DNA of 64,000 nucleotides from Methylocystis echinoides (lineage in GTDB: Bacteria > Pseudomonadota > Alphaproteobacteria > Rhizobiales > Beijerinckiaceae), in the NCBI RefSeq assembly GCF_040687965.1, contig NZ_CP156085.1:1-64000 (forward strand). The letters are read 5' to 3'. Shown one piece after another: positions 5,078-61,851 of the stretch (its first letter is position 1; every line of letters begins with the position of its first letter). The notes under the pieces are model-generated. The model saw only the letters and a program-made list of their open reading frames with translations, was not told the DNA's origin and made no database searches. Made by a program: the position numbers and the translations under genes.

Positions 5078-6118
5078 GTGTCGAGTTCAGTTGCGTCGGA
5101 ATTATCCCGACGCCTTGCGCAGGACGCCGAGGCGGTCTGCCGGTACTATTTGTCGAACGGCCGCCGCCATGGCCGTTACTGGATCGTTGGCGACGCCCGC
5201 AATACGCCAGGCCGGAGCCTTTACGTTCGGCTGACGGGTCCGGAGAGTGGCAAGGGCGCCGCCGGGCATTGGACGGATGCCGCCTCGGGCGAATTTGGCG
5301 ATCTGCTCGATATCATTCGCGAAAGCGACCGTTTGAATGATTTTTCCGACATTCTCGACGAAGCGCGGCGATTCCTCAGCCTGCCGCGCGACGAACCCCG
5401 GCACCAGCAAGCATTCTATCGCAATGAGCGGAAGACAGGCTCCCCGGATTCGGCGCGCCGACTGTTCAGCATGTCACGGCCGATCGCGGGCACATTGGCG
5501 GAGCGCTATCTGGATCACCGCGGAATTTCAACGCAGCAGGATCTCGAAAACCTCCGCTTCTATCCCCGCTGCTACTATCGGTCCGGGAACGAAGCCCCTG
5601 AGACCTGGCCTGCGATGATCGCGGGGGTTACCGACCGCAAGGGCAAGATCACCGGCGTGCATCGCACATGGCTCGACAGGATGGGGCGCGACAAGGCGCC
5701 GATCCCCTCCCCGCGACGCGCCATGGGGGAGCTGCTCGGCAACGGCGTCCGTTTTGGCGCGCCCCTCGACGTGATGGCGGCGGGTGAAGGGATCGAAACC
5801 GTGCTCTCGGCTCGATGTCTTCTGCCCAGCATGCCGATGATCGCGGCCCTGTCTTCCGCGCATCTCGCCGCCATCCTGTTCCCGAAAGGACTGCGCCGCC
5901 TCTATGTCCTGCGCGACAATGACACCGCCGGCGAAAGGGCTTCATCGACCCTTATCGACCGCGCGAGAGCCGAGCGGATTGAGGCCATCGTCCTCTCCCC
6001 CGCGTTGGGTGACTTCAACGACGATCTGCGCCGCCATCGTAAAGCCAGGTTGCAAGCGGCAGTCAGAGACCAGCTCGCTTCTCATGACATTGACCGGTTC
6101 ATGAGTCCTGCGCGGTGA
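5078..6118 (+). CDS. Toprim-domain protein (primase/helicase-like)
   Basis: This 346-residue protein resembles the Toprim-containing plasmid and phage primase-like family. An N-terminal DUF7146-like region (roughly 1-170) includes the GHWTDAASGEFGDLLDII segment, and the C-terminal Toprim domain (about 230-330) shows the acidic AAGEGIETVLS motif and the metal-binding LYVLRDNDTAG motif. There is no obvious zinc ribbon at the N-terminus. GTG at 5078 is the likely start: GGAGG at 5065-5069 sits eight bases upstream. An ATG at 5045 lies inside the terminator hairpin and is unlikely. It may help DNA synthesis on the plasmid, but priming activity is inferred only from the fold. Confidence 0.8.
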   Translation: MSSSVASELSRRLAQDAEAVCRYYLSNGRRHGRYWIVGDARNTPGRSLYVRLTGPESGKGAAGHWTDAASGEFGDLLDIIRESDRLNDFSDILDEARRFLSLPRDEPRHQQAFYRNERKTGSPDSARRLFSMSRPIAGTLAERYLDHRGISTQQDLENLRFYPRCYYRSGNEAPETWPAMIAGVTDRKGKITGVHRTWLDRMGRDKAPIPSPRRAMGELLGNGVRFGAPLDVMAAGEGIETVLSARCLLPSMPMIAALSSAHLAAILFPKGLRRLYVLRDNDTAGERASSTLIDRARAERIEAIVLSPALGDFNDDLRRHRKARLQAAVRDQLASHDIDRFMSPAR

Positions 6119-6268
6119 CCTGGCCTTGCGACGAAACGAGCGCCCGATCCCCTGTCCTCACGCGATTGCGCCAATCGCCTTCTTTCCTTTTGTCGGAGCC
6201 AGCCGCAGTCCCGGCCTTCTGAGAAGGCGACCCTTGCGTCGGGCGCTCCGGCTCGGCAATGGCTGCGG

Positions 6269-6447
6269 CCGGCTATTTTCCGTCGCGCCCTCAGGGCGCT
6301 TTACATCGCGAAGCAAAATAGCCGGACGCTTCGCCATCCTTCGCTGACGCTACGGCCGGTCGCTGCGCGCCCCGGTGCCAGCCGGTCCCGCCCGCCGCCT
6401 TCTGTCGCCACGAAGGCCGCGAGGGTCGCGGCCGATCCGACGAAGGA
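6269..6447 (+). promoter_or_regulatory. Structured leader, type B, copy 1
   Basis: An outer 11-pair stem CCGGCTATTTT (6269-6279) with AAAATAGCCGG (6315-6325) encloses an inner hairpin GCGCCC/GGGCGC (6285-6299). A conserved CGCCATCCTTCGC follows, then hairpins GCCTTC/GAAGGC (6397-6417) and GGCCGCGA/TCGCGGCC (6415-6433); the last two partly overlap and may be alternatives. The GAAGGAG ribosome-binding site of the DUF2493 gene comes next. The same layout with different stem bases precedes the DUF736 gene at 8384. Confidence 0.6.
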
Positions 6448-6455
6448 GAGCGCCA

Positions 6456-7394
6456 ATGACGACCAATCATGACAACCAAGGCATCGACACAATTCCTGCC
6501 GCTTCCCCAATTGAGCGCGTTCTTGCCGAACTTCAACTCTATGGCTATCGGCCGTTCCACGACGAGCCCGACCCCCGGCCGCTGCCCGACCCCCAAGCGA
6601 TTACCGGCGCCGTCGCCGATATCTTCGACGCCCTCCTGGCGACTCTAACCGACACGCGCCTGGAGCCCGATCTCGAGGAGTTGCTCTGGTCCACGGTCAA
6701 CCTCTTCCACCGGGCGGTGCTTCGCGTCGAGCGAGAACTCGACGACAATGAGCAGGCGCAGCGGCGCAGCCAAAAGGAACAGGACGGCTCGGAAATCCGC
6801 TCGGTGGAGCTGGAGCGCCTGATCTGCGAAGGGCAAACGCTCCTCGAACGCCGTGACAGTTTGGAGCTCTTCCGGGACCAGGCCGCCGACGCCTTCGAAG
6901 CGCACACTGGCTCGTCCTGGCGTCCCCGTTCCGGCTCGAAGGTCAACCACCGATCCTTGACCGCCGCGATGATCGACAGCCGGGACTTTCTTGCCGCCAA
7001 GCGCCGGATAGAGTCCGAGCCACTCCTTCCGGCCGGGCCACGGATCGCCTTCACCGGCGGACTCGACTTCAACGACCATCGCGCGATCTGGGATCGCCTC
7101 GACAAGGCGCTCGCCAAACATCCCGGCATGGTGCTGCTGCACGGCGGTTCGCCCAGAGGGGCCGAACTCATTGCTTCCTGCTGGGCGAATAATCGCAAAG
7201 TTACGCAAATCACCTTCAAGCCGGACTGGGCCCGCCACGCCAAGGCCGCGCCTTTCAAGCGCAACGATCAGATCCTCGAGACGCTTCCCATGGGCGTCAT
7301 CGTCTTTCCCGGCTCGGGCGTCTCCGCCAATCTTGCCGACAAGGCCCGGAAGCTCGGAATCCCGGTCTGGAGATTCGAGGACGGCGGCGCATGA
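6456..7394 (+). CDS. DUF2493 (SLOG-type nucleotide-binding) protein
   Basis: This 312-residue cytoplasmic protein has a C-terminal DUF2493 domain (about residues 195-310). The segment begins RIAFTGGLDFNDHRAIWD, continues with VLLHGGSPRGAELIASCWA and ends with VIVFPGSGVSANLADKA. This is the Rossmann-like SLOG fold that binds nucleotides or related ligands; the ligand here is unknown. The N-terminal half is helical, with charged stretches such as RVERELDDNEQAQRRS. The ATG at 6456 follows GAAGGAG at good spacing; an upstream ATG at 6375 would translate the structured leader. DUF2493 genes are frequent partners of DUF736 and Toprim genes on alphaproteobacterial plasmids. Confidence 0.85.
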   Translation: MTTNHDNQGIDTIPAASPIERVLAELQLYGYRPFHDEPDPRPLPDPQAITGAVADIFDALLATLTDTRLEPDLEELLWSTVNLFHRAVLRVERELDDNEQAQRRSQKEQDGSEIRSVELERLICEGQTLLERRDSLELFRDQAADAFEAHTGSSWRPRSGSKVNHRSLTAAMIDSRDFLAAKRRIESEPLLPAGPRIAFTGGLDFNDHRAIWDRLDKALAKHPGMVLLHGGSPRGAELIASCWANNRKVTQITFKPDWARHAKAAPFKRNDQILETLPMGVIVFPGSGVSANLADKARKLGIPVWRFEDGGA

Positions 7395-8203
7395 GCGCCG
7401 CCCTCGCTCTAATTTTTATCTTTGTCCAAGGGGGCCTCATCGACTCCTTGCAAAGCTGGTTTATTTCACCTCAACGAGAGTGCGGACTGCATTTCTTGAG
7501 CCGCTCTCTTCCATGACAACATCATTTTGATTGCATGCGTCGCTGAAGAGGCATGAGCGCATGAGATTTTGACGAGCATCAAACTTTTCGGTGCGTCAAT
7601 ATGCGAAATTGCGAAAGCCTCGGCTGCCTCTTATCCCTTGCAGATGTTTAGAAAGCCCATTTTGAACGCCCTAGTTTTCTCGATGTTGATGACATCATTT
7701 GCAGCTGGCGTCGCGATGTTTTTGACGCCGGCGCCGCTTGCAAGAGATTTCTTGGATTTTCGTCGAAAGGATAACGTGGCACGCCTCCATCAGGCGCGCT
7801 ACTCTGGTGGGTGAAGCTCTGCAAACGGCCAATTGGCGACAGCTGAGCAACCCGGGCATGCCGCCCTTGGCTCCCGCCGCCGCAAGAAACTCAGCCGCAC
7901 GTCTAGCGAGGCGAGCCCTGCCCAGCGCCCGTTAAAACGCTGAGGCCATTTGTGAACGGCATCCGTTGCGTATCGACGCAGGCCGCCGGACGCGCGCCGC
8001 TCTCCGAAGCCTCCGGGCGACGCGCCGCCCGTCAATGACCGGATATGCGAGGGGCTCTCCTGCCGGCTTTTGCCTCCTACCCTGCTCCAATCTCTCCTGA
8101 GTGATCGCTGCCGAGCCCAGCACGACCAAAGCGACCTCTTTCTTGGCTATATCTGGCCGAAGACCGGCTCCGCCTCGATCGCCTGAGACGCAACAGCGGG
8201 GAA
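7395..8203. other. Long gene-poor stretch between DUF2493 and DUF736
   Basis: No gene is well supported. A short frame at about 7644-7814 on the plus strand would encode a small protein with a hydrophobic N-terminus (VFSMLMTSFAAGVAMF) but lacks a clear ribosome-binding site and any recognisable family. The remaining frames look like GC-driven shadows. Confidence 0.4.
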
Positions 8204-8375
8204 GCGACTTTTTTCCCCTGACGCCTGCAGCGTCATTCCTCTCGAGACAAGAAAGTCGCCTCTCCGCCGTCCTTCGCGCTGCTGCGGCCCTGCGGGTGCG
8301 TCGGCGAACCGTCTTCGTCTGCGAAGCCCCATCGAGGCCGCCATGGTCGCGGGCTCGAGGCAGCAGATCAACAGG
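8204..8375 (+). promoter_or_regulatory. Structured leader, type B, copy 2
   Basis: An outer 11-pair stem GCGACTTTTTT (8204-8214) with AAGAAAGTCGC (8249-8259, one G-T pair) encloses an inner hairpin TGACGC/GCGTCA (8219-8235). The motif CGCCGTCCTTCGC follows, then hairpins CTTCG/CGAAG (8313-8326) and GAGGCCGC with GCGGGCTC (8334-8356, one mismatch). The AGGAG ribosome-binding site of DUF736 comes next. The layout matches the DUF2493 leader, while the stem bases differ and still pair. Confidence 0.6.
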
Positions 8376-8383
8376 AGATTATC

Positions 8384-8707
8384 ATGGCGAACATCGGCTC
8401 TTTCAAAAAGTCCGGCGCTGAATTCCAGGGCGAAATCGTCACCCTCAGCGTCCAGGCCCGCGGCGTCCGCATCATCCCGGAAACGAACCGCGCCAACGAG
8501 AACGCCCCGAGCTACCGCGTGTTTGTCGGCCGAGCTGAAATCGGCGCCGCCTGGACGAAGCGCTCGACTGAGGGCCGCGACTATCTCTCGCTCAAACTCG
8601 ACGATCCGAGCTTCACCGCTCCGATCTACGCCAATCTCTTCGACGACGAGGATGGCGACGGCTACAGCCTGGTCTGGTCGCGTGGCCGAAAGGCGAGTGG
8701 CGAGTGA
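8384..8707 (+). CDS. DUF736 family protein
   Basis: This small 107-residue protein covers the whole DUF736 family length. It starts MANIGSFKKSGAEFQGEI and contains the family core: RIIPETNRANENAPSYRVF, EIGAAWTKRS, YLSLKLDDPSF and PIYANLF. It is cytoplasmic with no membrane segment. The start is set by AGGAG eight bases upstream of the ATG. The family is very common on alphaproteobacterial plasmids, often just upstream of parA, as here. Its function is unknown. A GC-rich hairpin follows the gene. Confidence 0.93.
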   Translation: MANIGSFKKSGAEFQGEIVTLSVQARGVRIIPETNRANENAPSYRVFVGRAEIGAAWTKRSTEGRDYLSLKLDDPSFTAPIYANLFDDEDGDGYSLVWSRGRKASGE

Positions 8708-8716
8708 CCTCGCTCG

Positions 8717-8744
8717 GCCTCCGCCCGCAGCAGCGGGCGGAGGC
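8717..8744 (+). terminator. Terminator-like hairpin after DUF736
   Basis: A perfect 12-pair stem GCCTCCGCCCGC with GCGGGCGGAGGC and an AGCA loop begins nine bases after the DUF736 stop. It lacks a downstream T-run, so it may act in mRNA stability or as a weak terminator. Confidence 0.5.
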
Positions 8745-8814
8745 GCTCCCGACTGAACGGCTTTTTCGCCTGAGCCTGCGGCAGGCTCACAAACTCGACT
8801 CGGCGCATCGCTAG

Positions 8815-8990
8815 AAGTTTGCCCAGGGCAAACTTTTTTGAACGTGGGCAGGCTCCCTTGGGGATCCAATTCTTCTCAGAGACGCGGGCAAAGTTTGCCC
8901 CGGGCAAAGTTTCTCAGCATGGCGACGTTAGGCGCCTGCTCACCACCCTGTGCTATTTCACAGTGTCTCCTCCTGCCTCCTACGGGCAAA
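8815..8990. promoter_or_regulatory. Cluster of TTTGCCC/GGGCAAA inverted heptamers before parAB
   Basis: Six copies of one heptamer lie upstream of parA. TTTGCCC (8818-8824) and GGGCAAA (8826-8832) form part of a perfect 21-base palindrome at 8815-8835. GGGCAAA (8886-8892), TTTGCCC (8894-8900) and GGGCAAA (8902-8908) alternate with single-base spacers. A half-site lies at 8984-8990. This layout suits a ParB-bound centromere or an autoregulatory operator for parAB. The first palindrome is followed by six Ts, so it could also serve as a terminator. Confidence 0.6.
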
Positions 8991-9080
8991 CCTCCGGCAT
9001 TAGCGAGCCTCGAGTCGCTCGCGCCAAGGAGAGTAGATGGATTTCGCGGCCTATGGATTTAACCCTGGCGCCACGACCAG

Positions 9081-9830
9081 ATGAGGGTACTGGTCGTCAA
9101 CAACGAGAAGGGCGGCGTTGGCAAGAGCACGATCGCCGTGCACCTCGCCTGGTATTTCGCCGAGCGGGGCAAGCGCGTGCTCTTTCTCGATCTCGACCCG
9201 CAGAGCAACGGCACCACGACGCTCGCAGCGCATGCCAGCCATATTGACGCGGCTGCGCTATTTTCGCATCCCGTCGCTATCCCCCCGATCGCCAAGAAAG
9301 GCATTCGCGTGCTTGGCGGCAGCGCCGCTTTGCGAGGGATTGTCTCGGTCGACAGCAAGCTCGTTGAACAGTTTCGCGCCAACCTCGCGGATGCGTCGCA
9401 GAGCTTCGACATCGCGATCATCGACACGCCGCCGACGTTCGGCGTCCGAAACCTGGCGGCGTTAATCGTCGGACAGTTCGTGCTGGCGCCTATCGACCTC
9501 GACGACTACGCCATCGACGGCATCGAGACGCTGCTCAAGCACATCGTTGGCGTGCGGCAGAAATATAATCCGGGGCTCACGTTTTTGGGATTGATCCCCA
9601 ATCGGCTGCAGACGACCTCGCCCCGACAGCGGAAGAACCTGAAGAGCCTCGTGCAGAAATTCGGAACCAAATATCTGTTCGATGGGGTGATCCCCCAGCG
9701 CTCATCTATTGGTGAGGCCTTGGCGGAGAAGAAGCCGGTCTGGAGCTTGCCAAAGACGGCGGCTCGCGAGGCAGGCCGCGAACTTCGGCTCGTATTCGAC
9801 AAGCTCGCGGCGAAGATGGAGGCAGCATGA
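9081..9830 (+). CDS. parA: ParA-family partition ATPase
   Basis: This 249-residue Walker-type ATPase moves plasmid DNA together with ParB. It has the deviant Walker A motif NEKGGVGKST (residues 8-17) with the signature lysine, Walker A' LFLDLDPQSN (about 34-43) and Walker B IAIIDTPPTF (about 113-122). There is no N-terminal DNA-binding domain, so it resembles the small ParA class rather than RepA. The ATG at 9081 is the first start in frame and begins the conserved core directly. Its stop overlaps the parB start by four bases (ATGA), indicating translational coupling. The heptamer cluster upstream is the likely control or centromere site. It is separate from the RepA/RepB pair at 36.8-39.0 kb. 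Confidence 0.9.
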   Translation: MRVLVVNNEKGGVGKSTIAVHLAWYFAERGKRVLFLDLDPQSNGTTTLAAHASHIDAAALFSHPVAIPPIAKKGIRVLGGSAALRGIVSVDSKLVEQFRANLADASQSFDIAIIDTPPTFGVRNLAALIVGQFVLAPIDLDDYAIDGIETLLKHIVGVRQKYNPGLTFLGLIPNRLQTTSPRQRKNLKSLVQKFGTKYLFDGVIPQRSSIGEALAEKKPVWSLPKTAAREAGRELRLVFDKLAAKMEAA

Positions 9831-11076: not shown

Positions 11077-11130
11077 GAGGCTGAGTGCAGGATAGGCTTG
11101 CCGCCAGCCATTTTTAACCGTGTCAGCCTC
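11077..11130 (-). other. Candidate oriT with IncP/VirD2-type nick sequence
   Basis: On the minus strand, CCTATCCTGC (11087-11096) equals the core of the IncP (RK2) nic region, where the cut falls after CCTATCCTG. It is flanked by an eight-base inverted repeat, GAGGCTGA (11077-11084) and TCAGCCTC (11123-11130). It lies just upstream of mobC and the relaxase gene, the usual place for oriT in such systems. The match is short, so the call rests on position plus motif. Confidence 0.55.
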
Positions 11131-11151: not shown

Positions 11152-11673
11152 ATGGCCTTTTTGGGGTTCCATATTGACGACGCTGTCGCTGAGCGCTTCG
11201 CCGCCCTCGCCGCAGGCGAGGGCGGCAAATCCAACCTACTGCGACGCTTGGTCGAGCAGGCTGTGGGGAGCGATGCGGCGATTAAGCCTCCCGCTCCACT
11301 CTCGCAAAGTTCCGGCAAGATCACGATCAGGCTGAGGGAAGGGGAGCTTCGGCTTCTCGAGTCTGTCGCCGCACAGCGCCGAATGACCCGCACGCAATGG
11401 GTCGCGTCAGCGGTTCGCACGCGGCTTGGTTTCCCGGTTCAACAGACGCATGAAGAAGCACAGGCCTTGCGCGCTGTTGTTCGCGAGTTGAATCGCATCG
11501 GCGGCAACATCAACCAGATCGCCCATGCTTCCAATCTGAACCGCCTGATCGGTCTTCAGGGCAGGCTAGACGCTGAGGCCGTCCGCGCGGCTTCGGATGG
11601 CGTCCAAGCAGCGCTCGCCGAGGTGCGCGAAATTCTGAGGCGCAATGCGAGCTATTGGGAGGGTCGGTTGTGA
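11152..11673 (+). CDS. mobC: MobC-like relaxosome accessory protein
   Basis: This 173-residue protein is of the plasmid mobilization relaxosome MobC type, which helps the relaxase open oriT. It has an N-terminal ribbon-helix-helix-like segment (FHIDDAVAERFAALAAGE, residues 6-23), a second similar segment (KITIRLREGELRLLESVAAQ) and the family signature LNRIGGNINQIAHASN (about residues 122-137). I chose the ATG at 11152; an earlier ATG at 11071 would read through the candidate oriT. The stop codon overlaps the GTG start of the relaxase gene, so the two are translated together. Confidence 0.85.
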   Translation: MAFLGFHIDDAVAERFAALAAGEGGKSNLLRRLVEQAVGSDAAIKPPAPLSQSSGKITIRLREGELRLLESVAAQRRMTRTQWVASAVRTRLGFPVQQTHEEAQALRAVVRELNRIGGNINQIAHASNLNRLIGLQGRLDAEAVRAASDGVQAALAEVREILRRNASYWEGRL

Positions 11674-12713
11674 GCAGGGAAGATCGCGATCTCGACTTGC
11701 CGCCGATCTCCTACGTGTGGCGGACCCCGGTCAAGAAACCCAAGCGGGCAAAGTGGGAAATCCCGGATCCAGTCGAGCCGGGCAAGCTTACCCCTGCCAT
11801 GCGGGCGCGGCTCGAGCGGATTGTCGCCAAGGCGCCCGAAGTGATGGTGAAAATCACCAGCAGGACCAAGACCGTCGCCCATTTGAAGTCCCATCTCGGC
11901 TATATCACTCGCGAGGGCGAACTTGGCGCCGAAACCGAAACGGGCGCCGTCATGGAAGGCCGGCAAGGTCTGCGAGACATCCAGTCACGATGGGCCGACG
12001 ACGCGGCGCTGGACGGGAGGCGGCGGCGGGATGGTCCGCTATCGCATAACGTCGTCTTTTCCATGCCTCCCGGAACGGCGCCCACGGCGGTAAGGGATGC
12101 AGTCCGCGCCTTTGCGGTCGAGACCTTCGGCGGGAGGCATGATTTCGTGTTCGTGCAGCATCTCGACGATGCGCATCCGCATGTGCACCTCACGGTGCGG
12201 TCGCTCGGCTATGACGGGCAGCGGCTTAATCCGCGCAAAGGCGATCTCGCGACGTGGCGGGAACAGTTTGCTGCCGAATTACGGCTCCGCGGTGTAGACG
12301 CCGAAGCGACGCCGAGACGCGCGCGGGGTAAAGTGCGGAAATCGGAACGCGGCGTCATTCGCGCAATCAAGCAGCGCGGTGAGCAACCGCGCATAGAGCG
12401 GCTCGTCCGCGAAGAGGTCGTGAGGCAAGCTCGTGGGCTTGAGACATTGGCGACGCCGCAGGAAGTGAAGGGGATCGAAAGACAGGCAGTCATCCGAGAC
12501 GGTTATCGCCGGCAGGCAGAGGAGTTGAAGCGCTCACTGAGCGGGGCGGACCATGAGCTGGCGACTCAATTGGAGCAGTTCGTCGCGGACATGCCCGCAC
12601 CCGAAACAAGGCGCGGTCGACTTTTGAAAGAATTGCGTAGGGGGCTCGAAAAGGCGCAGCTACAACCGGGTGTCGAACAAAGAGAGAGAGAACGGCCGGA
12701 GCGGACCAGATAA
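11670..12713 (+). CDS. VirD2-like relaxase/mobilization nuclease
   Basis: This 347-residue relaxase should nick oriT and pilot the strand through the VirB/VirD4 channel. The HUH nuclease domain (about residues 45-200) has VMVKITSRTKTVAHLKSHLGY near its start and the histidine triad motif DDAHPHVHLTV (about 166-176). A long basic helical tail follows, with KRGEQPRIERL-like composition suited to a secretion signal. GTG at 11670 is favoured because GGAGGG lies six bases upstream and the start overlaps the mobC stop. The family is the VirD2/MobP type, consistent with the IncP-like nick sequence nearby. Confidence 0.87.
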   Translation: MSREDRDLDLPPISYVWRTPVKKPKRAKWEIPDPVEPGKLTPAMRARLERIVAKAPEVMVKITSRTKTVAHLKSHLGYITREGELGAETETGAVMEGRQGLRDIQSRWADDAALDGRRRRDGPLSHNVVFSMPPGTAPTAVRDAVRAFAVETFGGRHDFVFVQHLDDAHPHVHLTVRSLGYDGQRLNPRKGDLATWREQFAAELRLRGVDAEATPRRARGKVRKSERGVIRAIKQRGEQPRIERLVREEVVRQARGLETLATPQEVKGIERQAVIRDGYRRQAEELKRSLSGADHELATQLEQFVADMPAPETRRGRLLKELRRGLEKAQLQPGVEQRERERPERTR

Positions 12714-12791: not shown

Positions 12792-13139
12792 TCAGCACTG
12801 CTTCCGTGCAGCCGCCAGCTCGTCCCGACAGACCCGTTCGAGGTCAAACAGATCTTCACGCGCGAGCTTCCACATGATCGCCGGGGCGACGCTCTCGTAG
12901 TTGTGGCGCAGTACGTTGCCGATGCCGGCGACTTTCTTCCAGGGAATGTTGGGATGGCGCGCTTTGAGCTCGTCGGTTAAGCGCCGGCTGGCTTCGGAAA
13001 TGATTTCGACGCCACGTTCGACCAGCCACTGTTTCTCCCAATCGGCTTCGAAGGCGTCAAGAGGCATCTCGGCCAGAACAAGGCGCACACGCTCGATCGC
13101 TTCAATAATGTCCGTGAGAGGCGCCGTCATATTTTTCAT
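12792..13139 (-). CDS. hepT: HepT-like toxin (DUF86 family)
   Basis: This 115-residue all-helical protein belongs to the HepT/DUF86 family of HEPN RNases, toxins paired with MNT-type nucleotidyltransferases. The family motif near residue 78 reads GIGNVLRHNYESV, with the conserved H-x-Y; the expected Rx4-6HxY spacing is met loosely. The gene lies downstream of and on the same strand as the MntA-like gene, ten bases apart. In studied pairs MntA adds AMP to the HepT tyrosine to silence it. The Cys-ending C-terminus abuts the convergent relaxase gene. Confidence 0.85.
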   Translation of the reverse strand: MKNMTAPLTDIIEAIERVRLVLAEMPLDAFEADWEKQWLVERGVEIISEASRRLTDELKARHPNIPWKKVAGIGNVLRHNYESVAPAIMWKLAREDLFDLERVCRDELAAARKQC

Positions 13140-13571: not shown

Positions 13572-14384
13572 TTACCTGATCCTCTGGCGCCCGGCGACAT
13601 GGTTCGGGGCTTTGGTTCTCTCTGCGGACCTTCGCTGCCCGGGGCCCAGCGCAACCTTTTTTTCAATGATTTCCGCCCGATCGAAGTGCGCGCCGCTGCG
13701 CCGATGATTGGCCATGCGCTCCCTTGCGGCGTTCAGAATACGGCTGCGCGCTTCCGGGTCTTTCGGGAAGGCGGCGAGGGCCACGCGCTCGATCAGGGCG
13801 AGGTGCGAGCGGACGTTAACATCGTTCCCGCCTTTGTTCCCAGCCCGCTCGGCTGGTGGCGGTCGTCTGGGCGTCTCCCCTGCCCTTCCGCGTTCGCGGT
13901 CAGAGGCGAGAGGCCGGCCGTCGCGTACGGGGCGCCCTTTCAGCTTCGCGAGCGCAGCGCGGTCAAGCTCTGTCGGCTCGTAGCCGTTAACCTCAATCCC
14001 TCGAATTGAGGCCACGCGCCAAGCCTCTCGCCGGAATTCCAGCGCGCCAGAAAGCTCGATTTTTTCCCATCCACGGTGGGCGGCGATCGCGACCAGGTCG
14101 CGGACCACCTCCAGGTTCGCAACACGCGTCATCAGGCGGTCCGGACTGGTTTTTGCGACGAGATATTCGCCGTGAGGGTCGGCGAAGATCCTCGCATTCG
14201 CCCGGTCGTCCTCTACGACGTAGTATTTCTGACGCAGCCGCTCGGGCAGAGAGTCGGATCTCTTTTCGTCCTTGTCTTTCGGACCCGCGCGGCGGTCGTC
14301 GCTGTCCTCTAAACGCTCCTCGCCTGCTCGCCCCACGCGCCTTGCTTCGAAGACGCGGCCCTTGTCCTGTTCACCCTCACCCAC
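13572..14384 (-). CDS. LPD7-domain protein downstream of traG
   Basis: This 270-residue protein has a central LPD7 (large polyvalent protein-associated domain 7) region, about residues 50-150. It begins RLRQKYYVVEDDRANARIF and includes VRDLVAIAAHRGWEKIELSG and FRREAWRVASIRGIEVNGYEPT. LPD7 is often fused to or encoded near conjugative relaxases and primases. Both flanks are highly charged and disordered-looking. I chose GTG at 14384, which overlaps the traG stop and has GGGAG eight bases upstream; the longer open frame up to 14513 would overlap traG out of frame. It probably takes part in transfer, but its role is unknown. Confidence 0.75.
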   Translation of the reverse strand: MGEGEQDKGRVFEARRVGRAGEERLEDSDDRRAGPKDKDEKRSDSLPERLRQKYYVVEDDRANARIFADPHGEYLVAKTSPDRLMTRVANLEVVRDLVAIAAHRGWEKIELSGALEFRREAWRVASIRGIEVNGYEPTELDRAALAKLKGRPVRDGRPLASDRERGRAGETPRRPPPAERAGNKGGNDVNVRSHLALIERVALAAFPKDPEARSRILNAARERMANHRRSGAHFDRAEIIEKKVALGPGQRRSAERTKAPNHVAGRQRIR

Positions 14385-39016: not shown

Positions 39017-39026
39017 AACGCAAAAG

Positions 39027-39077
39027 AAAAAGGCCCCCGAAACGTCACCGTCCCGGAAGCCCTTCTCGTATCTAAGC
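39027..39077 (-). ncRNA. Antisense RNA (incA/ctRNA) of repABC
   Basis: The repB-repC gap carries a minus-strand promoter, TTGACA (39107-39112) and GAATCT (39084-39089) with a 17-base spacer. A terminator follows: stem GGCTTCCG (39054-39061) with CGGGGGCC (39032-39039), then T5. This gives an RNA of about 50 bases starting near 39077. Such counter-transcribed RNAs lower RepC production and set incompatibility. The 5' end is predicted, not measured. Confidence 0.85.
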
Positions 39078-39142
39078 AATCCGAGATTCTCACTTCCGCG
39101 AATCACTGTCAAGAGTCGGCGCCGTTTCGGCGAGCAGATTTC

Positions 39143-39167
39143 TTTTGCCTAAGCGAGGCAAAAGGTC
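39143..39167 (+). promoter_or_regulatory. Hairpin hiding the repC ribosome-binding site
   Basis: TTTTGCCT (39143-39150) pairs perfectly with AGGCAAAA (39156-39163) across an AAGCG loop. The AAAAGG ribosome-binding site of repC begins in the right arm. In repABC plasmids the antisense RNA favours this closed form, which reduces RepC translation. Confidence 0.75.
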
Positions 39168-40502
39168 ATGCAAAGACAAGCAACGACGCCCTTTGGGCGG
39201 CGATCGCTGTCGCTCGCCATGGTGGCGAGCCAGGCGGCGACAAAAGAATTCGCGTCGCGCCCTAACGCGTCAGAAACCATCGTCCATAAATGGCGGCTGT
39301 TTAGGGCTCTGACGGAGGCGAAAACTCCGCTTGGCGTCACCGACCGCGCTTTGTCGGTTTTGCACGCGTTGCTGAGCTTTCATCAGGAGACGGCGCTGAC
39401 GCTCCCCGAGAAGGGCGCAAACGGCTCGGAAAGCGAGGTGGTACCGGGGATCGTTGTCTTCCCGTCGAACAAGGAGCTGTCGATTCGCGCCCACGGCATG
39501 GCGCCGGCGACGCTGCGCCGGCATATCGCGATGTTGGTCGACGCGGGCCTGATCATCCGCCGAGACTCACCAAACGGCAAACGCTTCGCGCGAAGAGGGC
39601 AGGGAGGGGAAATCGGCGAGGCCTTCGGCTTTGACCTAACGCCCCTCATCGCGCGCGCGACCGAAATCGAAAATCTCGCCGAAGAGGTGCGCGCCGAAAA
39701 CCGCGCGATGGCCTTGTTGCGTGAGAGGATCACCCTGGCGCGGCGCGATATCGCCAAGATGATCGAGACGGGGATGGAAGAGGGCGTGCCCGGGGACTGG
39801 GAGGCGCGTCACAGCGCCTATTTGGCGCTAGCCGGCTGCCAGTCGCGCAGGATGACACGGACCGATTTGGAGGCTTTGGCGGGTGAACTCGCTGCGTTTG
39901 CGGGCGAAATCAACAGTGCGTTGGAAAACCACGTTAAACGCGAAAATAAGAGCGCCAATGAGTCTCAGACTGAGCGGCACATACAGAATCAAACCACAAA
40001 CATTTCTGATCTTGAACCTAGCCTTCGAGAAGGCAGGGCCGAACCGTTGGGGCCAATCGGCGACGAAGCAGAGGCGGATGGGGCACAGGCTTCGGAACCC
40101 GAGAAACAGGAAACCGAGCCCCGTGTCCGTCCCACGCCAACCCCCAGAACCTATCCACTGGGGATGGTGCTGCAAGCTTGTCCGGATATCGTCGATTACG
40201 CCAAGGGTGGCGACATTTCATCATGGCGCGATCTCGCTTCCGCCGCCGGGACCGTGCGCTCTGCGCTGGGCGTCTCGCCCGACGCCTGGGCGCAGGCCTT
40301 GGACGCAATGGGCGAGCATGACGCCGCGATTGTCATCGCCGCCATCCTTCAGCGGGGCGAGGAGATCAGGTCCGCTGGCGGCTATCTGCGCGTTCTGACC
40401 GCCAAGGCGCGGGCAGGGGAGTTTTCACTTGGGCCGGTATTGATGGCGCTGTTGCGCGGCAAGGCCGCAAAAGGGGCGCGCGAGCGGAAGAGGGTAGGGT
40501 GA
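39168..40502 (+). CDS. repC: RepC replication initiator
   Basis: This 444-residue initiator is specific to repABC plasmids and binds the origin inside its own gene. The N-terminal domain contains KWRLFRALTEAKTPLGVTDR and IVVFPSNKELSIRAHGMAPA, then TLRRHIAMLVDAGLIIRRDS, a winged-helix pattern. The C-terminal domain (from about residue 320) contains YPLGMVLQACPDIVDYAKGG. An AT-rich stretch around 39940-40015 inside the gene is the likely oriV. The start follows the regulated AAAAGG site. Confidence 0.95.
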   Translation: MQRQATTPFGRRSLSLAMVASQAATKEFASRPNASETIVHKWRLFRALTEAKTPLGVTDRALSVLHALLSFHQETALTLPEKGANGSESEVVPGIVVFPSNKELSIRAHGMAPATLRRHIAMLVDAGLIIRRDSPNGKRFARRGQGGEIGEAFGFDLTPLIARATEIENLAEEVRAENRAMALLRERITLARRDIAKMIETGMEEGVPGDWEARHSAYLALAGCQSRRMTRTDLEALAGELAAFAGEINSALENHVKRENKSANESQTERHIQNQTTNISDLEPSLREGRAEPLGPIGDEAEADGAQASEPEKQETEPRVRPTPTPRTYPLGMVLQACPDIVDYAKGGDISSWRDLASAAGTVRSALGVSPDAWAQALDAMGEHDAAIVIAAILQRGEEIRSAGGYLRVLTAKARAGEFSLGPVLMALLRGKAAKGARERKRVG

Positions 40503-61384: not shown

Positions 61385-61851
61385 TAGAAATCCGCCTTTG
61401 TTGCCGTCATGCGGCCGCATCCCACTTTTTCGTGGAACCACCTTGCCGCGGATCGGCAGGTTGGTGAGAGCGCTAGCCCTCGTCTCGATGCAAATCTGAG
61501 ATGGGAGTTGGCTTGCGCGTCTTCAAGAAGAGCTCGTAGAGAAAATCTCCCGAACGGTCGGACGGCGCGGTCTCCAATATCAACCCGAGATCTTCGCGAA
61601 AACTGAGGTTCAAGATCTCGTCGGGCCTTGTCCAAAAACGATGGCAGCGACCTTCTTCATGTTCAACCCGGCCCGCTCGATATGTCGTCCAGGCGTCCGG
61701 GCTTCCTCGACTACAATATGAGCCTCTCGCACGGCGATCGAGTTCCAAGCGGCGGCGTTTGTAAGTTAACCCGTTATAGCCAAGCTTGCTAATAACAGAT
61801 GAAGTTCGTATTTCACTTCAACATTCTCAAGCAGGAAAGGCAAATAGACTG
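61385..61851. other. Stretch with no supported gene
   Basis: No convincing gene. One minus-strand frame near 61630-61745 gives a short AREAHIVVEEARTPGRHI-like stretch that could be a relic, not identified. Confidence 0.35.

Follow-up and report, generated by a model that had tools for sequence, protein, structure and literature searches.

Structured leaders and single-stranded promoters

Long, conserved and structured leaders 5' of genes are familiar from processive antiterminators and riboswitches, and hairpins that are recognised by primase and active on single-stranded plasmid DNA are familiar from the ssiA and ssiB sites of RSF1010. The leading region of the F plasmid carries antirestriction, ssb, ParB-like and psiB genes that are directed at traM, beside which oriT lies. 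Single-stranded promoters are known from enterobacterial plasmids, where they were searched for both by similarity to Frpo and by -35/-10 boxes; in that work, Samuel and colleagues found leading-region anti-defence, methylase and SSB families on one strand and read this as enabling transcription off the entering strand (PMC11541004). A further survey searched by Frpo similarity only (PMC12826799). ArdC binds single-stranded DNA, and one R388 conjugation route reportedly required the recipient to express it (PMC7213743); DUF736 genes are reported, often duplicated, on all elements of a Mesorhizobium survey (PMC8627217).

The leader element described here has neither Frpo similarity nor such boxes and was therefore probably missed by both search routes. 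Its family is real, widespread and without an Rfam match. The titles and abstract openings of open-access papers on DUF736, rhizobial leading regions and single-stranded-DNA promoters contained no description of it, which is a weak kind of absence.

Two leaders in one gene run

The window, a stretch of 64,000 nt from a plasmid of Methylocystis echinoides, carries both leaders in a plus-strand gene run that points at a NikA-like gene and a relaxase at 11.1-12.7 kb, and in which a 377-aa protein without assignment is followed by ParB-like, toprim/DUF7146, DUF2493, DUF736, ParA and ParB-KorB genes. The features are as follows.

6244..6455, plus: leader element of the DUF2493 gene; model match 6244-6390, extending up to the start codon
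6269..6279, plus: P2 outer stem, left arm CCGGCTATTTT; in the sequence, kept in DUF2493 homologues
6285..6299, plus: P3 inner hairpin GCGCCC/GGGCGC; in the sequence
6315..6325, plus: P2 outer stem, right arm AAAATAGCCGG; in the sequence, kept in DUF2493 homologues
6332..6344, plus: conserved linker CGCCATCCTTCGC; consensus also in homologues
6443..6449, plus: ribosome-binding site AAGGAGA; in the sequence
6456..7394, plus: DUF2493 / YspA-type SLOG gene, PF10686
8145..8383, plus: leader element of the DUF736 gene; model match 8172-8316
8204..8214, plus: P2 left arm GCGACTTTTTT; the stem runs further down in homologues
8219..8235, plus: P3 inner hairpin TGACGC/GCGTCA; length varies among relatives
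8249..8259, plus: P2 right arm AAGAAAGTCGC; one G.T pair with 8204-8214
8265..8277, plus: conserved linker CGCCGTCCTTCGC
8332..8358, plus: 3' hairpin 5' of the ribosome-binding site, closing pairs TCGAG/CTCGA; beyond the reach of covariation because nearly invariant
8373..8377, plus: ribosome-binding site AGGAG; in the sequence
8384..8707, plus: DUF736 gene, PF05284
11087..11094, minus: putative nic TATCCTGC, between the ParB gene and NikA
11655..12713, plus: MobP1/VirD2-type relaxase, separated from the leaders by the putative oriT; MobP1 model score below the curated cut-off

The sequence-only reading, made from the letters of this DNA, had correctly placed an outer stem, an inner hairpin and the linker CGCC(A/G)TCCTTCGC in both leaders, the other parts it named are present as well, and its spacings between parts (5 versus 4 and 15 versus 13 bases) were accurate too. 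By themselves, the two sequences do not go beyond chance: a stem of equal length arises in 45/300 and 26/300 dinucleotide shuffles, the folding z-scores are -1.49 (DUF2493 leader) and -2.03 (DUF736 leader) as RNA and -1.56 and -0.74, neither of them significant, as minus-strand DNA, and the outer stem is absent from the RNA minimum-energy fold of the DUF2493 leader. It is the comparison with homologues that settles the conservation of the leaders.

The window has other features of its own. Between the DUF736 gene and the ParA/ParB-KorB genes, 5' of the latter, stands a near-identical palindrome pair, AAGTTTGCCC(A/C)GGGCAAA(C/G)TTT, at 8815-8836 and 8890-8911, 53 nt apart, possibly partition or operator sites. 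A repABC plasmid copy-control region with ctRNA_p42d and S-element matches is found at 39020-39170, and a SAM-I/IV riboswitch match at 61387-61496 (minus strand). The gene at the window edge (1-1186), which we take to resemble a transposase, seems to be split over two reading frames.

A widespread family in front of a few genes

BLAST against plasmid records returned the DUF736 leader in 310 of them and the DUF2493 leader in 52. A covariance model, R1, was trained on 39 DUF736 leaders, the DUF2493 leader being withheld on purpose. In the window it recovers that withheld DUF2493 leader at E 3.9e-8, ahead of the next-best place at E 0.079; both leaders thus belong to one family. A third copy (C4, E 1.6e-5) is present in the window's own genome. 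With a cut-off of E <= 1e-4, R1 has matches in 92 of the 397 genomes searched within the order and in 27 of the 385 within the class; at E <= 1e-5, 27 of 299 genomes drawn by phylum have the family, three of the 27 lying outside the class. The most copies seen in a genome of the class are eight (G380), which fall within 47 kb and on one strand. Rfam gave three matches over the whole window at the gathering cut-off, none on the leaders, and at E up to 5 over 6000-9100 only two (E 1.9 and 3.2), on the minus strand and off the hairpins of the leaders.

Which genes does the family serve? On genome contigs, among the matches listed, a model match lies directly 5' of the gene at 78 of 80 DUF736 loci, 38 of the 78 having served in model building; the two misses are a locus cut short (L080) and a masked one (L104). 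Having been retrieved through DUF736 itself, these 78 matches do not enter the counts that follow; neither do 16 weak minus-strand matches of palindromic type at these loci. At 135 other places, made up of 94 out of 100 matches, 39 out of 42 second matches and the window's own two (four duplicate places, two weak antisense matches and three identical second matches being left out), the next gene is DUF736 at 62 and DUF2493 at 50, the latter being over-represented because the 39 second matches stem from DUF736-fetched loci. The other 23 consist of four DUF736 genes in the wrong frame (relabelled by the analyst), one remote DUF736, one ArdC by Pfam, four genes ArdC-like by sequence, one place without an ORF, and twelve short genes or genes without assignment. 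The claim that both DUF2493 and DUF736 have the leader therefore stands, and its two-gene scope has to be widened, since the family also precedes other genes (ArdC). The distance from the end of the model to the start codon is nearly fixed, mostly 60-90 nt. In L183 (1510-1737), L181 (5870-6097) and L199 (3254-3481), each on the minus strand, the element is followed by a short protein of 76 aa; two of the three were scanned, with no Pfam match, and they may be unrecognised leading-region proteins.

A fold kept by compensatory change

Across 40 leaders, mean column identity rises from about 0.68 to 0.86 at 240 nt 5' of the start codon, remains at 0.83-0.94 until the last 20 nt (0.75) and is 0.92 in the first codons, so that the conserved element measures about 240 nt instead of the roughly 170 bases first proposed. 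For the structure, 53 non-redundant leaders were taken from 81; 13 were removed for long inserts, masked bases or divergence or, in the case of the DUF2493 leader, purposely, and L058 was removed before alignment A2. On the resulting 39-leader alignment a structure was set by hand, with P1a (GATCG/CGATC), P1b (CGCA/TGCG), a 20-pair P2, the inner hairpin P3 and the second hairpin P4. In it 90.0% of cells pair, against at most 52% when the structure is slid by 1-3 columns. Sixteen of its 39 pairs change on both sides, eleven covarying pairs belong to P2, and the 94 covarying cells compare with 30.4 in shuffles, of which 0/500 reach 94. P1b stands outside this test because it never varies, and the P2 pairs 32-97 and 33-96 are unpaired in 16 and 19 of the 39 rows. 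The 20-pair hairpin, the junction and the second hairpin are thus kept by compensatory change.

The A+T tract of P2 even flips in some distant members yet stays complementary, TTTCTT/AAGAAA becoming AGAAAATT/AATTTTCT (L191 14407) or AAGAAAACTT/AAGTTTTCTT (L175). The DUF2493 leaders (40 non-redundant of 45) follow the same plan, mostly with a CTATTTT/AAAATAG core, and their longest perfect Watson-Crick arms extend from 7 to 21 pairs; base-shuffled rows average 6.35 and reach 12 at most. Homologous leaders that lose the stems would speak against the sequence-only reading; the stems are kept in most, and in 6/40 DUF2493 leaders the longest arm reaches just 7 pairs, close to the average after shuffling. 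Covariation and the model match across paralogues bear out its central claim, a duplicated and structurally conserved leader 5' of DUF2493 and DUF736. Its further view that shape and not stem sequence is conserved is right when one paralogue is compared with the other, and for the lower stem; within each paralogue, the core of the upper stem (ACTTTCTT, CTATTTT) is itself well conserved. A hairpin-like insert of 21-37 nt, mostly CACCCC...GGGGACCCC, occupies the P3 loop of seven leaders (L042, L066, L069, L077, L085, L092 and L095) and may be a small mobile palindrome.

Orientation towards relaxase and nic

In 6/6 annotated plasmids (p42a, pRi1724, pCHQ1, pMpar-1, a Roseibium plasmid and pHCG3), the gene behind the leader points at traC/traA or the relaxase, and all 13 model matches at E < 0.01 in these plasmids are on that strand. 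Of 62 long loci, 38 include a relaxase, and of the 66 elements in these 38 loci, 64 share its strand and have it downstream; for L207-L246, 'downstream', but not strand, is biased, since these 20-kb windows span roughly -4 to +16 kb along the element. Of 20 centred windows, two being short, 13 contain a relaxase, and it is downstream on the same strand in 13/13. Since the elements stand on the relaxase strand and face the relaxase, the T-strand would be the template of these genes. The two exceptions among the 66 (L184 13984 and L198 12828) are inverted, each scoring the same as another copy 3.6-3.7 kb off. Such equal-scoring inverted DUF736 leaders, located beside a third copy, are seen in two different genomes (L184 10378-10513, minus, and 13984-14119, plus; L198 9090-9229, minus, and 12828-12967, plus), and an inversion or duplication between leaders is a possible origin.

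All nic-like sites, including TATCCTGC at 11087-11094, are putative, being called by general motif rules. With 11 TATCCTGC-like motifs in the window against 5.64 expected, the one at 11087-11094 counts by its place. In three of the four Ti-type plasmids, the interval from traC to traA contains a nic-like motif on the opposite strand; the annotated plasmids p42a, pRi1724, pHCG3 and pCHQ1 have such motifs on the expected strand, in pCHQ1 at 156 nt 5' of the relaxase, with one more on the other strand 1.9 kb 5'; pMpar-1 and the Roseibium plasmid, two of the six, have none. Of the 38 relaxase loci, 13 have the motif near the relaxase on the expected strand, 4 have it on the wrong one and 21 lack it; all six TATCCTGC that lie 148-156 nt 5' of a relaxase are on the expected strand. 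The nic motif and the gene order suggest that the leaders of the window lie in the leading region and that the minus strand is the T-strand. The arrangement found is that of leading-region genes read from the T-strand towards the putative oriT, which was placed by nic-like motifs, by the relaxase and by the order of the tra genes.

Does the fold work as RNA or as DNA?

A fold acting as RNA should tolerate G.U pairs, not A.C mismatches. In the pooled alignments A3 and A4 (69+44 non-redundant rows, L244-L246 left out of A4), 85 G.T and 93 A.C were counted where column independence predicts 276 and 257, a log2 odds of -0.23 (bootstrap -1.18 to 0.38). In genomes of the same order, the same count gave 51:5 and +1.53 (0.22 to 4.83) for SRP RNA (23/30 rows kept); for RNase P RNA, in 29 rows after one of the 30 loci (L282) was left out, it gave 145:12 and +2.79 (1.62 to 4.61). 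The pooled element equals or exceeds SRP in 0.25% of 400 bootstraps and RNase P in 0/400, and RNA-like tolerance of G.U over A.C is thus absent from the pooled set when it is compared with the two RNA controls; the separation exists in the pooled set only, the single sets being wide and overlapping SRP (A2 -1.73 to 1.92, A3 -1.01 to 0.95, A4 -3.03 to 0.41). In the 39 DUF736 leaders, near-duplicates included, there are 13 G.T and 37 A.C, nine of the 37 from one badly aligned pair. Frpo2 of F and relatives (8 sequences, identity >= 0.88, L311 and L317 left out) has 2 G.T and 8 A.C, or 1 and 13, depending on the folding strand, which are small numbers.

The strands also differ in how well they fold. 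RNAalifold gave -50.4 and -27.2 for DUF736 leaders on the minus strand versus -32.5 and -13.1 on the plus strand, and -25.5 versus -17.3 for DUF2493 leaders; Frpo2 likewise folds better on the T-strand (-182 versus -154), whereas the RNA controls are reversed (SRP -39 sense, -14 antisense; RNase P -149 sense, -99 antisense). A conserved stem-loop fold of the T-strand was found in the family alignments and in L121, whose T-strand has a 22-pair stem (z -8.13). Inserts of at least 10 nt in A3+A4 fall in the apical loops of P3/P4 in 42 of 45 cases and in the internal loop in 3, a count in which the rows are partly dependent and the alignment method favours loops. The covariance-model alignments A3 and A4 were fitted to the model structure. 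Such fitting gives G.T an advantage over A.C and tends to place inserts in loops; hence the pooled wobble count is conservative and the insert count is not. In a MAFFT alignment of the 53 leaders, inserts fall seven times in the P3 loop and once each in the P4 loop and the internal loop, and contrary inserts of 20-21 nt lie inside the P2 right arm of 3/53 leaders (L058, L066 and L082). Insert placement is a supporting argument only. The sequence-only reading had left both transcript and single-stranded DNA open as the acting form; the absent G.U preference and the fixed orientation to relaxase and oriT point to DNA.

A proposed mechanism and its rivals

On balance, the leaders are probably copies of one Frpo-like element that acts on single-stranded plasmid DNA, the alphaproteobacterial counterpart of F Frpo, whose promoter activity we infer. 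During conjugation, the minus strand would enter the new cell first as the T-strand, to judge by the nic motif and gene order. Each copy on it would fold there into a long hairpin that has an upper stem rich in A+T, an asymmetric loop and, further in, a variable hairpin; a junction would connect it to the second hairpin. Covariation reveals this pairing. The folded DNA may then recruit a transcribing enzyme, be it host RNA polymerase or another or plasmid-borne factor, which would copy the template strand towards oriT and yield the mRNA of the gene that begins about 65 nt past the modelled part. DUF736, DUF2493 and ArdC would thereby be made ahead of the second strand, like ssb and other genes under Frpo in F, and the same RNA could possibly also be a primer for second-strand synthesis. 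There are no -35/-10 boxes: in 40 leaders the best sigma-70 score averages 5.67 versus 5.94 in shuffled sequences, and its commonest 10-nt position bin (12/40 leaders) is at the start codon. R1 has no match in the F leading region (50.0-67.5 kb) at E up to 10. Without boxes and without a match to F, the element is not filed as Frpo. It is conceivable, and we put this forward more tentatively, that it represents a separate, box-less type of promoter on single-stranded DNA, widespread on plasmids of alphaproteobacteria and probably also on integrative elements. Such a promoter would be recognised by the shape of its fold, with the A+T-rich stem, the asymmetric loop and the junction, and the factor that reads it might be encoded on the plasmid and either travel with the T-strand or be made early from it.

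Could the leader instead work once it has been transcribed, its mRNA hairpins controlling termination, translation or stability in the manner of a riboswitch, an antiterminator or a protein-bound leader? Its place directly 5' of the ribosome-binding site, at a near-fixed distance and with the last hairpin just before the site, is what a cis-regulatory RNA would require; yet the pooled G.T count does not exceed that of A.C as it does in SRP and RNase P RNAs handled alike, the antisense strand folds better than the sense strand, the orientation is tied to the relaxase and Rfam has no match, all of which makes this reading unlikely. The wobble count does not bear in the same way on a double-stranded operator, whose arms would be half-sites for the dimeric regulator of a plasmid regulon, as a palindromic duplex site would equally give equal G.T and A.C; the many copies in front of several genes and the inverted-repeat arms with an A+T core conserved in most rows also suit it. 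Conserved half-sites at constant spacing were not found, however: the upper core is conserved in most rows, while the lower arms and the spacing are not, the lower stem varying freely but remaining complementary. The flips of the A+T tract, the inserts of up to 48 nt between the arms, which would alter their phase, and the further covarying helices P1a and P4 also argue against an operator, which we regard as improbable.

Single-stranded DNA would be the acting form also if the fold were an initiation site (ssi) that primes second-strand DNA synthesis only, with toprim as a possible partner and no mRNA. A toprim gene is in the same cluster in the window and in 5/6 annotated plasmids, none being seen near the Roseibium element, and the title of the 1997 Frpo paper of Masai and Arai reportedly speaks of primer RNA synthesis; priming alone, on the other hand, hardly explains a single copy per gene, several genes and a near-fixed distance to the start codon, and its chances appear small. 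A mobile hairpin repeat of REP or MITE type without a role for its neighbours would account for several copies per genome, but given the near-fixed place, distance and orientation 5' of few gene families, it is very improbable.

Comparison with known systems

If the reading as an Frpo-like promoter on the entering strand is true, rhizobial, sphingomonad and methanotroph plasmids would also express genes early off entering DNA, and the family would supply a map of establishment genes, including DUF736 and DUF2493, two families of unknown role, together with a model to find more. Comparing G.T with A.C counts alongside RNA controls, as in this wobble test, offers a general means to ask whether a conserved fold works as RNA or DNA.

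With the leaders of processive antiterminators and riboswitches, the element shares length, structure and conservation; unlike in the two RNA controls, its pairing has no G.U excess. With ssiA and ssiB of RSF1010, it would share hairpins acting on single-stranded plasmid DNA; these sites are not known to stand in front of individual genes. From Frpo1 and Frpo2 (ssi) of F and its relatives it differs in having no detectable match to them, no -35/-10 boxes, other hosts and other genes, and a junction with variable apical hairpins. The likenesses to Frpo1 and Frpo2 are a noncoding fold of hundreds of nt in the leading region, repeated 5' of several genes, with the template on the T-strand and the genes facing oriT; and in Frpo2, as here, the T-strand folds better and there is no G.T excess.
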